From Nostoc sp. PCC 7107 (GTDB lineage Bacteria > Cyanobacteriota > Cyanobacteriia > Cyanobacteriales > Nostocaceae), in assembly GCF_000316625.1 (NCBI RefSeq), contig NC_019676.1, positions 1,785,001 to 1,849,000 on the forward strand: a stretch of 64,000 nt of DNA, written 5' to 3'. This document shows positions 54,570-58,403 of the stretch, piece by piece. Numbering within the stretch: the first letter of the stretch is position 1; every line of letters begins with the position of its first letter. Made by a program: the position numbers and the translations under genes. The notes beneath the pieces are model-generated. The model had not been told where the DNA came from and searched no databases. It saw only the letters and a program-made list of their open reading frames with translations.

Positions 54570-57500
54570 TTAGGATTTTTCTTTTCCTACGTTAATATTT
54601 CGGACAAGTCTGTTACGCATTACCCTATCAAGACTTGCACTCACACTTTCAGCATCCGGTGACTGCAATCGCTGCAAAATCTCTAAAGCTGGTTGCAAAT
54701 AGGATATCGCTTTAGTGTATTCACCCTGCTGTTCTGCCAAATGTCCTAACAACCACAAAGTCATTGCCTTGGCTTGGACATTTCCAATGCGTTCATTTAT
54801 TTCCAAAGACTGATTGAAAAGTGCGATCGCTTCATCCACTTCCCCTTTGTTAGCGTAGATAATTGCCAGTTGTTTCAACGTCACCGCTTTGCCTTGGACA
54901 TTTCCAATGCGTTCATTTATTTCCAAAGACTGATTGAAAAGTGCGATCGCTTGATCCACTTCCCCTTTGTCGGTGTAGATATATCCTAGATTGTGCAACG
55001 TCGCCGCTTTGCCTTGAACATCACCAATGCGTTCTGTTATTTCCAAAGACTCCTTGTAGAGTGCGATCGCTTGATCTACTTCACCTTTGTTAGCGTAGAT
55101 CATTCCCAGTTGGTGCAATGTCGTCGCTTTGCCTTGGACATTACCAATGCGTTCATTTATTTCCAAAGACTCCTTGTAGAGTGCGATCGCTTCATCCACT
55201 TCCCCTTTGTTGGCGTAGAGAATTCCCAGTTGGTGCAACGTCGCCGCTTTGCCTTGGACATTACCAATGCGTTCTTTTAATTCCAAAGACTGATTGTAGA
55301 GTGCGATCGCTTGCTCCATTTCCCCTTTGTTGGCGTATATACGTCCCAGTTCGTGCAACGTCGCCGCTTTGCCTTGGACATAACCAATGCGTTCTTTTAT
55401 TTTCAAAGACTGATTGAAAAGTGCGATCGCTTGCTCCACTTCCCCTTTGTTGACGTAGATCATTCCCAGACAGTGCAACGTCGCAGCTTTGCTTTGGACA
55501 TCTCCAGTGCGTTCACTTATTTCCAAAGACTGATTGTAAAGTGCGATCGCTTGCTCCACTTCACCTTTGTTGAGGTAGATACCTGCCAGGTTATGAATTA
55601 TTGTAGATTTTTCTATTTCGTCTGTTTCCAAACAAAATTCAAGCGCTTGCTGATAATACTGCTGTGCTTGTTCAACTTCACCAAGTACTTCTTGAGAGCG
55701 AGCTATTTCATGTAAAACGCGGTAGTCTGGAGTGAATTCTAAGGTAGATTTGCACAGTTGCACTGCTTCTCGAAAACGGCTTTGATTTTTCCAGTTACGT
55801 GCCAGATAGAAGGCTATTGTGCCAGCAATGTCTTCATCCTTCCCCAACAACGCCAAGCGATGAATTTCTAAACTTTGTGCTTCCGTCGCACCTTTCCCCT
55901 CTTCCCACCACAGACGATACAAAATTTGTGCAGCTTGTTTATACAACTCTTCACCCTTGGGGTTTTCTGGAAACTCTAGCAACGGTGACAAAATCCGGGG
56001 AACACGATACAACCTCTCTGTGTTGTTGGTGAGGGTAACTTCCAACAAACCCAAAATTTCAGCGCATTGCTTATGACTTTCCCAACTTGAGATATCCTCA
56101 CAAATCGGGGAAATAGCAGCTAGAGGAACAGGTAACTCATACACCAACAACTTCCCCAGCATAAGACGCAAAGCTGGAGTTTGCTGCTTCAGCAATTCCT
56201 GTGCCAAAATATCCTCACGAAATTCCTTTTCCTTATCTGCCATCTTTTGCAGAATCATCTCAACTCCCCTCTCCGCTTCCGGCGACTTCGGGGAATTTTG
56301 CAAAATCTGATCTAACCATTCCAACAGCCGAGGATTTCCATCTGCTGCTGTTTTGGCACGTTCCGGCAAATCTGGCTGAAATTGCCAACTGCCATTAAAC
56401 GAATCCAGACGATTATACTTTTTAATTAAATCTGCCCCACCCAAAGCCCCCAGAGGTTCGCGGTACAGACGATGATTCAGTTCCGACAAAGTGAAATTGT
56501 AGCGACAGGTAATAATTACCTTGTGGGGAAGTTGGGAATTTTGCATCGCCTTCAGCAACGCCAGCATTACCTCCACAACTTGTGGTTGCAAGACATAAAC
56601 CCCATTTCGTAATTCCAAATTAGCCTCAAAGTCATCCAGCACAAAGGCAAAGCGCTGTTCTTTGGTATTCAGTCCTTCACTGAAAAACTTGGTGAGGCGC
56701 TGCATCAAGGGTAACTTGCCATTGAGAATTTCATGCCCCCGTTCCGAGGTACATTGTTCAGCAAGGGTTTTGAGCAGTTTGTCCTCATCCAGTTGCCGAA
56801 AGTTCACCAGCCTGTGATAGCCAACCATCCTTTCCAGAAGTCGCGCCGTCACAGTACTCTTACCCACACCCCCCAGTCCGTGAATTAGTACCCCTAATGA
56901 AGTGCGAATAGCTTTGAGACAACGTTGCAAAGTCCGCCGTCTCCCCACAAACTCAGAGGGTTTCGCCACCCGCACCAGTTGGGTATCGGGATCTAAAAAC
57001 TGTTGATAAGCAGGTTCCGGCGCTGAGAGTGGCACATCTCCCAACACATCCACCAACGCACCCGGACATTCACCCTGGACATATAACCGTAACAAATGCC
57101 AGTCACGCACTTTCTGTTTAAATAACTGCTGGTAAGTACTAGCTAGTGCTTGGGCTAATTGATATCCCGCCGCCAATTTGCCGTAGAGGTGCGCGGCGGC
57201 GGCTGTGGCTGTCCGATCTTCCACAGGCCGCCCCCAACTTAAAACCGCCCTAGCCCCTTGTTCAATAAGCGCCTCAGCCATTGAAGGAACAGCCCCTTTA
57301 TCTGGTGCTTGTCCAGTCCGACACCCAGACAAAAACACCAACTTGGGAAAGCGAAACCGAAAGATTTCGGCCAGTTCTGCGGCTGTGGTTTCGTGGCGAT
57401 CGCCGATTTCCGTCTCAGTAATAAAGTAAGGCGTGTAAGGTGCTTCATCTTTAATTGAGGCGTGTCCTGTGAGGTGAAACACATCAAAGTCATTAAAATA

Positions 57501-58076
57501 GCGACTCCACACCTTACCCAACTCGCTAACGCAACCGCTTTCTTCCACCCGCAAATCAACAGCAAAATCTCGCGTATCAGCCAGAATTCTCGCTTCTTCC
57601 TGTTCAAACTCTAACTTTGGTTGCACATCTTCCGGATCGGTTGCCATAAACAATACTCGCAATTGTCGTGCTTCCACAGAAAACGGTTCCGTTTCTTTCT
57701 CAATCCAGCGCAGAGGTAACACCACTGGATTAACCCGCTTGACTAAAAAATCCTCACCATCATGCAGCACTTCCCAAGGTAAATGTGCCAATTTTTTATC
57801 AGTATCAATGGCAATTACCAACCCCTCACCGCGACAGTTAGCAATTCCCCGACTCAACCACCGTCCATCCCCATCCAACCAAAAAAATAACTGCTTCCCG
57901 ATTCCTGGTAAATTGGGCAGCAGTTTATAATAATCTCGTTCGCCTTGCTGGAGGAAATCAGCGATTTCTGCCAATTTCAGGCGACGTGATTCATAGTGCT
58001 TTATTTGAGGTAGCCAATACCTGAGTTCAACAGTTTCCTGCGTACTTTCCCGAAGTTGAATGCGGATAGTTTGCAC
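54570..58076 (-). CDS. CHAT protease - STAND NTPase - TPR protein
   Basis: 1168 residues. The N-terminal CHAT (caspase-like) domain has the catalytic His in HLTGHASIKD (His205) and Cys in FLSGCRTGQAP (Cys252). A STAND-type NTPase follows (Walker A HGLGGVGKST, 399-408; Walker B FAFVLDDFE, about 480) with a winged-helix-like part to about 690. The last third is TPR repeats, including seven nearly identical 40-residue units. The start is GTG 58076, just behind the stop of the small upstream gene. CHAT-STAND-TPR proteins are signal-triggered proteases of cell-death or antiviral type in multicellular cyanobacteria; the trigger and target here are unknown. Confidence 0.88.
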   Translation of the reverse strand: MQTIRIQLRESTQETVELRYWLPQIKHYESRRLKLAEIADFLQQGERDYYKLLPNLPGIGKQLFFWLDGDGRWLSRGIANCRGEGLVIAIDTDKKLAHLPWEVLHDGEDFLVKRVNPVVLPLRWIEKETEPFSVEARQLRVLFMATDPEDVQPKLEFEQEEARILADTRDFAVDLRVEESGCVSELGKVWSRYFNDFDVFHLTGHASIKDEAPYTPYFITETEIGDRHETTAAELAEIFRFRFPKLVFLSGCRTGQAPDKGAVPSMAEALIEQGARAVLSWGRPVEDRTATAAAAHLYGKLAAGYQLAQALASTYQQLFKQKVRDWHLLRLYVQGECPGALVDVLGDVPLSAPEPAYQQFLDPDTQLVRVAKPSEFVGRRRTLQRCLKAIRTSLGVLIHGLGGVGKSTVTARLLERMVGYHRLVNFRQLDEDKLLKTLAEQCTSERGHEILNGKLPLMQRLTKFFSEGLNTKEQRFAFVLDDFEANLELRNGVYVLQPQVVEVMLALLKAMQNSQLPHKVIITCRYNFTLSELNHRLYREPLGALGGADLIKKYNRLDSFNGSWQFQPDLPERAKTAADGNPRLLEWLDQILQNSPKSPEAERGVEMILQKMADKEKEFREDILAQELLKQQTPALRLMLGKLLVYELPVPLAAISPICEDISSWESHKQCAEILGLLEVTLTNNTERLYRVPRILSPLLEFPENPKGEELYKQAAQILYRLWWEEGKGATEAQSLEIHRLALLGKDEDIAGTIAFYLARNWKNQSRFREAVQLCKSTLEFTPDYRVLHEIARSQEVLGEVEQAQQYYQQALEFCLETDEIEKSTIIHNLAGIYLNKGEVEQAIALYNQSLEISERTGDVQSKAATLHCLGMIYVNKGEVEQAIALFNQSLKIKERIGYVQGKAATLHELGRIYANKGEMEQAIALYNQSLELKERIGNVQGKAATLHQLGILYANKGEVDEAIALYKESLEINERIGNVQGKATTLHQLGMIYANKGEVDQAIALYKESLEITERIGDVQGKAATLHNLGYIYTDKGEVDQAIALFNQSLEINERIGNVQGKAVTLKQLAIIYANKGEVDEAIALFNQSLEINERIGNVQAKAMTLWLLGHLAEQQGEYTKAISYLQPALEILQRLQSPDAESVSASLDRVMRNRLVRNINVGKEKS
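54781..55620 (-). repeat. Seven tandem 120-bp coding repeats, each with one HIP1 site
   Basis: Units begin at 54781, 54901, 55021, 55141, 55261, 55381 and 55501, each exactly 120 bp, encoding 40-residue TPR units (GNVQGKAATLHQLG, then IYANKGEVDQAIALYNQSLE in outline). Each unit holds GCGATCGC at the same place, in the AIAL codons. The near-identity shows recent amplification or gene conversion. Confidence 0.95.
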
Positions 58077-58403
58077 TTATTTGCTGATAGATTTGAGGAT
58101 TTCGGTGATTTCCTCTATAGTAGCTTCTTCGAGTAAAATCCTGTTTCCAGTATCAGGGTCAAGAATTACCACATCAAATTGCTTCCCTGGATGAGATTTA
58201 TGCCATTCTTGATACCATTTGCGAATTTGTTCAGCTAAAGCCGCAACACCACCCACAATGCCGACAATAGTAGCGATGACTGCTAATGTGCCTTCTTTTG
58301 AGCTAGGAACTTCATAACTCCCCGATATTCCAGGAATTTCTAGCAAAGCCTCGGCGGCGGCTGGCGCACCTTCACCCTCAATCCCAATTTGAATTTCTGC
58401 CAT
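58077..58403 (-). CDS. EACC1-like small conflict-system component, 108 aa
   Basis: I choose ATG 58403 (MAEIQIGIEGEGAPAAAEAL); the frame opens at GTG 58421. The layout is a first strand, a helix, a strand ending GSYEVP, a hydrophobic double helix (GTLAVIATIVGIVGGVAALAEQI, in part), then the strand FDVVILDPDTGNR and a last helix EATIEEITEILKS. This matches the effector-associated constant component (EACC1) proteins found beside caspase- or trypsin-type conflict genes. Its stop codon abuts the GTG of the CHAT-NTPase gene, so the two are translated together. It probably sits in or near the membrane. The assignment is by pattern, not by search. Confidence 0.62.
   Translation of the reverse strand: MAEIQIGIEGEGAPAAAEALLEIPGISGSYEVPSSKEGTLAVIATIVGIVGGVAALAEQIRKWYQEWHKSHPGKQFDVVILDPDTGNRILLEEATIEEITEILKSISK

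Follow-up and report, generated by a model that had tools for sequence, protein, structure and literature searches.

Does the gene pair considered here, a small gene abutting a gene for a large CHAT-STAND-TPR protein in the cyanobacterium Nostoc sp. PCC 7107, belong to the predicted conflict systems that are built around EACC1? The pair lies on the minus strand of a window of 64,000 nucleotides (positions 1785001-1849000 of the 6.33-Mb single-contig genome, NC_019676.1). In EACC1 systems as published, a gene for EACC1 precedes one for a caspase-superfamily protein whose C-terminus varies; such systems are described as common in actinobacteria, with sporadic occurrences in proteobacteria (PMC7159879). 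We tentatively read the pair, with a probability of about 0.48, as an EACC1-type two-gene conflict system in which CHAT, an Apaf-1-like STAND switch and a sensor would stand in place of the C14 caspase. The arguments are the conserved pairing of the two genes, the profile similarity of the small protein to EACC1, the intact protease and switch motifs of the large protein and the variability of its sensor repeats.

The small gene accompanies a CHAT-STAND gene in changing surroundings

The two open reading frames (ORFs) encode 108 and 1168 aa, and their coordinates, strand, lengths and stop-to-GTG junction agree with a preliminary description of this DNA. The “overlap-type coupling” that it assigned to the junction does not apply in the window, where the small ORF, started by ATG, ends with TAA and the GTG of the large ORF is the very next base (0-bp gap). 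A gap of 0-2 bp is found in most Nostoc loci and a 4-bp ATGA overlap in three others (L104, L107, and L108; L and G numbers are our handles for loci and genomes). The small ORF is more than a chance reading frame, because it has full-length relatives at 50-94% identity and a ratio of nonsynonymous to synonymous differences per site (pN/pS) of 0.145 in 24 Nostoc-type sequences; the corresponding value for CHAT-STAND is 0.248 (24 sequences). Relatives at 71-94% identity number 32 among loci L021-L052 and are mostly from Nostoc. Partial and broken copies included, the small gene was found in at least 27 of 386 sampled cyanobacterial genomes.

In 37 of 38 loci a same-strand CHAT-STAND gene follows within 1.5 kb downstream; the sole exception is L058, where the small gene is present just as its first 50 residues. 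The presence of the small gene beside homologous CHAT-STAND genes in related genomes, on which the preliminary description had staked its proposal, is thus borne out. Seen from the large gene, 22 CHAT-STAND matches score at least 680 bits; the small gene is adjacent in 18 of them and one match begins at the edge of its contig. The small gene is likewise present at four lower-scoring matches that are truncated or broken (G078, G172, G245, and G320). The small-gene search scored mostly 12 candidates per genome and the CHAT-STAND search 2, so that both counts are lower bounds; the check for the small gene excluded G103, G068, and the second G125 CHAT-STAND match. Grouping the upstream contexts of the 37 loci and the window by a shared stretch of 1 kb or more yields four clusters, with 16, 10, 3, and 2 members, and leaves seven contexts single; some of the latter may simply have diverged too far for a match. 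The pair was kept together while its surroundings changed. If EACC1-likeness is granted and CHAT is counted in the caspase superfamily, the small gene stands directly 5′ of a caspase-superfamily gene on the same strand, as in the published systems.

Cases of separation speak against a fixed two-gene module. In the stretches read, the small gene was not found beside the three remaining matches of at least 680 bits (L147, L148, and L149) nor beside six lower-scoring CHAT-STAND relatives (L150-L155), and in G305 (G305:C16; L095, L156) it occurs without a CHAT-STAND gene. Upstream of L147, which encodes a CHAT-STAND protein with a GUN4 end, lies another gene matching the CHAT-STAND profile, where the stretch read ends. 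The coupling is therefore strong, not absolute. Interrupted copies of one gene or the other occur in L021, L035, L054, L094, and L097, owing to sequencing error or real loss.

The small protein is probably a divergent EACC1

The preliminary description had likened the small protein to EACC1. Profiles of 54 distinct small proteins (from 57 gathered) and of 42 EACC1-type proteins were compared using hhalign. The latter comprise 7 actinobacterial proteins, encoded on plasmids upstream of caspase matches, and 35 cyanobacterial entries, which we call EACC1-type and not proven EACC1, because they were selected by gene position and with a profile to which some of them had contributed, and because Pfam's EACC1 model (PF19953) has a match at E<=0.01 in just 1 of the 292 cyanobacterial genomes sampled and no match above its cut-off. 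The two profiles align in register over 86 columns with a probability of 82.2% and a P of 1e-5 (reciprocal comparison 65.1%). The score of 36.1 compares with 19.2 for the best of 200 column-shuffled controls and at most 14.6 for reversed ones; a smaller set yielded 57.4%, the best score among 60 shuffles being 15.4. Profile similarity to EACC1, whose absence would have told against the earlier assignment, is hence present. Of the first 13 EACC1-type candidates, Pfam EACC1 recognizes 9 at E<=0.1; one of the 13 is a TIR protein and was removed from the set. A hidden Markov model (HMM) of the first 12 EACC1-type proteins scores L108 (E 2.3e-4), L157 (6e-4), and L107 (0.0032), which belong to a single genus, against 0.3 for the best of 627 decoys. 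Most of the 57 small proteins, including that of the window, do not stand out under this HMM.

A rather doubtful alternative is that the small protein is an unrelated hydrophobic partner of the large one (an inhibitor, substrate or anchor), EACC1-like by convergence. It draws on several results that count against an EACC1 system as such: the window's protein stays below the curated Pfam cut-off (12.0 vs 23.6 bits, E 0.22), and none of 23 diverse family members exceeds it (5 of 23 at E<=1, best 0.0012), with E-values level with those for unrelated families such as Tail_P2_I (0.0016). The split hhalign sets are weaker, at 39.5% for the actinobacterial EACC1 and 15.4% for the cyanobacterial EACC1-type proteins alone, and the choice of the cyanobacterial entries, described above, is partly circular. 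Convergence would also fit an EACC1-type HMM that picks up just one lineage and a structure-model comparison that gave no informative match for the small protein. What it explains poorly is the joint profile match, with reversed and shuffled controls far lower, and a gene position, size and hydrophobic core the same as those of EACC1. Overall, the small protein is probably a divergent EACC1; of the earlier assignment, the similarity stands and formal family membership, below threshold, does not.

The predicted layout of the small protein is strand-helix-strand-hydrophobic segment-helix-strand-strand-helix, which fits a moderately confident AlphaFold2 model (mean predicted local distance difference test score 74), in which confidence is lowest at about residues 31-50 and residues 41-49 of the hydrophobic segment are drawn as a strand. 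The best 19-residue mean hydropathy is 2.33, and a 19-residue segment with a mean of at least 1.6 occurs in 54 of 54 family members. The segment contains GIVGG, whose last glycine (G52) is the only invariant one in an alignment of 23 members. Hydropathy suggests a membrane link of the small protein. In the EACC1-type comparison set, transmembrane-level hydropathy (at least 1.6) is reached by 6 of 7 actinobacterial EACC1 and by 1 of 35 cyanobacterial proteins (examples from this set are L138:842-1219 and L165:1492-1899), and the latter figure questions a transmembrane helix in all EACC1-type proteins.

The small protein could alternatively be the executioner itself, cut by CHAT so that a freed hydrophobic part forms pores, in the manner of fungal CHAT-bearing NLRs encoded beside gasdermin genes (PMC9815663). 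Gene adjacency and the hydrophobic segment present throughout the family agree with such a role, which we nevertheless judge distinctly unlikely: the Pfam scan gave no gasdermin match, no cleavage site was identified, and a conserved small component would suit an adaptor equally well. Gasdermins are also far larger than a 108-aa protein, which counts further against it.

The large protein joins a predicted protease and a STAND switch to exchangeable sensor ends

The domain assignment of the preliminary description, CHAT with His205 and Cys252 followed by P-loop STAND and TPR parts, is backed by Pfam matches and invariant motifs. CHAT (PF12770) scores 88.6 bits against a cut-off of 24 (E 6.3e-25), and matches to AAA_16 (E 8.1e-10) and TPR_12 (E 3.4e-96) accompany it. 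His205, Cys252, the P-loop Lys406, and VLDDFE are invariant in 11 of 11 aligned large proteins. Structure comparison of the CHAT model points to the folds of SAVED-CHAT, Csx29, and separase, and the domain is a predicted His-Cys protease with an intact dyad. P-loop, Walker B and a STAND-like fold are all present in the STAND region, whose structural matches have a root-mean-square deviation of 16-17 Å and low confidence near the P-loop, a point that weakens the proposed switch. The window's locus is absent from the 10 matches in its genome to NF047832, the NCBIfam model of EACC1-associated caspases. Features of the pair are collected in Table 1.

Table 1 Features of the gene pair, in positions of the 64,000-nucleotide window
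Feature	Position	Strand	Basis or remark
Small EACC1-like protein, 108 aa	58077..58403	-	ATG to TAA ORF, relatives, profile comparison
Hydrophobic (transmembrane-like) segment, small-protein residues 39-58	58230..58289	-	Hydropathy, alignment
CHAT-STAND-TPR protein, 1168 aa, GTG start	54570..58076	-	ORF and Pfam
Predicted CHAT protease domain, residues 85-324, His205 and Cys252	57105..57824	-	Pfam stretch, alignment, fold match
STAND NTPase region and following helical part, about residues 375-760	55797..56954	-	GLGGVGKST P-loop, VLDDFE
TPR array, 120-bp (40-aa) tandem units, 6.8 copies, 87% matches (Tandem Repeats Finder)	54769..55581	-	Most variable repeat positions 6, 9, 31, 39

Among loci that have the small gene, the domains after CHAT-STAND are exchangeable: TPR forms the sensor end in the window protein and L105, and GUN4 in L102, L103, L104, L106, and L108. 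GUN4 was found in 6 of 9 large proteins scanned. These GUN4-ended forms go beyond the preliminary description, as does the variability of the TPR array, which was unexpected. They make a link of tetrapyrrole status to a protease switch possible, and fusions of GUN4 to signaling domains have been described as sensing the state of photosynthesis (PMC7159879).

A GUN4 sensor suggests a tetrapyrrole or photosynthesis signal rather than a pathogen and in this respect disfavors a conflict system. It is central to the proposal that the module is a physiological or developmental stress regulator, with a CHAT-STAND protein that senses internal state (tetrapyrroles via GUN4, a host partner via TPR), acts by cutting a regulator and plays no part in defense against invaders. 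CHAT proteins are moreover numerous in this genome, with 31 matches. The patchy distribution of the small gene and its changing genomic context fit such a regulator badly, and site-specific variability and copy-number change of the TPR array would be ill-suited to a conserved internal ligand; on balance we think it unlikely. PADLOC reported TPR models at the locus, with C3a156 covering the TPR part, along with weak matches to BovA and PDC-M71B.

The TPR array varies at few positions per repeat

TPR variation was followed in the window and 25 of the 38 loci, the others being truncated, broken, contig-ended or distant (L021, L025, L030, L033, L035, L043, L050, and L053-L058), and was compared between strains and species, not between alleles. 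A repeat pattern detected 4-13 units of 40 aa per protein, with a mean unit identity within the 26 proteins of 0.69-0.94 (highest in L031). The window's own units average 0.76 aa identity, with a maximum of 0.85, on a measure that differs from the >85% over at least 100 aa used for fungal NLRs in PMC4986451. Of all 205 units, 204 are distinct, and DNA identity is higher within arrays than between arrays in 289 of 325 strain pairs.

Amino acid change is concentrated at few positions. From 98 adjacent non-overlapping unit pairs, the ratio of pN to overall pS, computed without a codon model, is 2.76 at position 9, 2.27 at position 31, 1.98 at position 6, and 1.93 at position 39, with bootstrap lower bounds of at least 1.57. 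The constancy of positions 4, 7, 8, 10, 11, 15, and 20 is no evidence, as the repeat pattern itself fixed them. When units are instead located by extension (249 in total, 5-16 in each protein, giving 118 pairs), the ratios are 2.17 at position 6, 1.91 at 9, 1.69 at 31, and 1.55 at 39. A second set of 11 other loci (49 units; two loci with a single unit; 36 of 38 adjacent pairs, those above 60% nucleotide identity, used) again places positions 6, 9, and 31 at the top, followed by 12 and 39. In TPR repeats, positions such as 2, 5, 9, 12, and 13 line the binding groove.

The strength of this signal is tempered by two observations. At the hot positions pS is itself raised (0.31 vs 0.20), and with a pooled pN of 0.49 at positions 6, 9, and 31 the ratio to local pS is just 1.6; also, the Nostoc strains are related, and a bootstrap over strains overstates their independence. 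The raised pS, together with the readiness of tandem repeats to expand and contract and with arrays of up to 0.89 mean identity in other CHAT-region proteins of the genome, might indicate replication slippage and gene conversion without selection, which would make the variability uninformative on function. We hold this for highly improbable, given the concentration of nonsynonymous change (pooled pN in the extended count 0.469 at positions 6, 9, and 31 vs 0.088 at the 26 other positions free of the pattern) and the recurrence of the same three positions in the second set.

At another CHAT locus of the same genome (L195; G000:C1:806500-812500), a 42-aa TPR-type array of 5 units has a mean identity of 0.89. 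Sensor repeats of such close identity may therefore be frequent among the CHAT proteins of cyanobacteria.

A tentative model and its relation to known systems

Together, domain homology and sensor variability suggest a nucleoside triphosphate-dependent role in death or defense. The large protein, with predicted protease, switch and sensor laid out as in immune receptors of animals and fungi, may let filamentous cyanobacteria detect infection or non-self and respond by proteolysis. Under an EACC1-type conflict system, the TPR array would bind a fast-changing ligand from a phage or non-self neighbor, as its repeat turnover and few variable positions hint. Ligand binding would open the STAND switch, leading to nucleotide exchange and oligomerization as expected from the family, and clustering would in turn activate the CHAT His-Cys protease, a step modeled on the SAVED-CHAT/Csx29/separase-like fold and the conserved dyad. 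The EACC1-like protein, with its glycine-holding hydrophobic segment, would dock the large protein at the membrane as adaptor or substrate, and activation could end in membrane damage or cell death.

The arrangement is like that of the EACC1 two-gene system (System 4, Kaur et al. 2020, PMC7159879), in which a small 5′ gene encodes one hydrophobic segment with central small residues between alpha+beta ends, and the 3′ gene an N-terminal caspase-superfamily protease with exchangeable C-termini, STAND NTPases among them; nSTAND1 is mentioned in EACC1 systems elsewhere (PMC8195603). It differs in its CHAT protease and in a small protein under the EACC1 threshold; “CHAT” does not occur in the main text of PMC7159879, and cyanobacteria are not named in its section on the system. 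The listed literature on EACC1, CHAT, TPR, GUN4, and NLRs, a scope with most subscription papers and supplements outside it, contains no account of an EACC1-like and CHAT-STAND module.

Fungal NLRs of the HET-E family and Pa_2_10340, whose switch is joined to near-identical TPR repeats, share with the module a varying copy number and a few variable positions per repeat; their arrays range from 2 to >14 repeats between isolates, with three selected positions on the concave face (PMC4986451). Unlike them, the present module is bacterial and has an EACC1-like partner, and its variable sites come from a comparison of species, not alleles, and are unmapped on a structure. Conflict proteins of multicellular bacteria diversified by diversity-generating retroelements also join diversified putative sensors to effectors, one target carrying CHAT and TIR (PMC10907252). 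There a retroelement acts, whereas here tandem repeats change, no retroelement search having been made at the locus. In contrast to Csx29/TPR-CHAT of the type III-E CRISPR Craspase and to SAVED-CHAT, the sensor is STAND-TPR or STAND-GUN4 and not a CRISPR effector or SAVED. The antiphage proteins bNACHT and Avs have the order effector-STAND-sensor in one chain, as in the CHAT-STAND-TPR protein, although no such model is among the PADLOC matches at the locus.

We regard a bolder version as improbable, namely that the module, as a single-chain protease-NLR, does in bacteria what allorecognition receptors do in fungi and inflammasome receptors in animals. Its TPR sensor would be reshuffled at ligand-facing sites and the EACC1-like membrane protein would be the proteolytic target that executes death in filamentous cyanobacteria, while the GUN4 swap would tie the trigger to tetrapyrrole status. 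If true, the proposed reading brings CHAT proteases and cyanobacteria into connection with the predicted EACC1 systems, and adds a bacterial NLR-like sensor that is diversified by repeat turnover, as in fungi. His205, Cys252, Lys406, repeat positions 6, 9, and 31, and the compact two-gene unit turn it into a testable idea, by which NLR-protease non-self death in multicellular bacteria becomes experimentally addressable.

EACC1-type genes elsewhere in cyanobacteria

Our own profile detects EACC1-type genes in 30 of the 292 sampled cyanobacterial genomes, and in 27 of the 30 loci an ORF carries a loosely defined caspase-like motif. A cyanobacterial branch of EACC1 may escape the Pfam model. The view, taken in the preliminary description, that EACC1 is mostly actinobacterial may need widening by this count, although Pfam's own model, as noted above, finds just 1 of the 292 genomes. 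In the same genome and outside the window, EACC1-type genes lie at G000:C1:5402946-5403999 and 6268828-6269818, each adjoining a caspase over the caspase_w_EACC1 cut-off.

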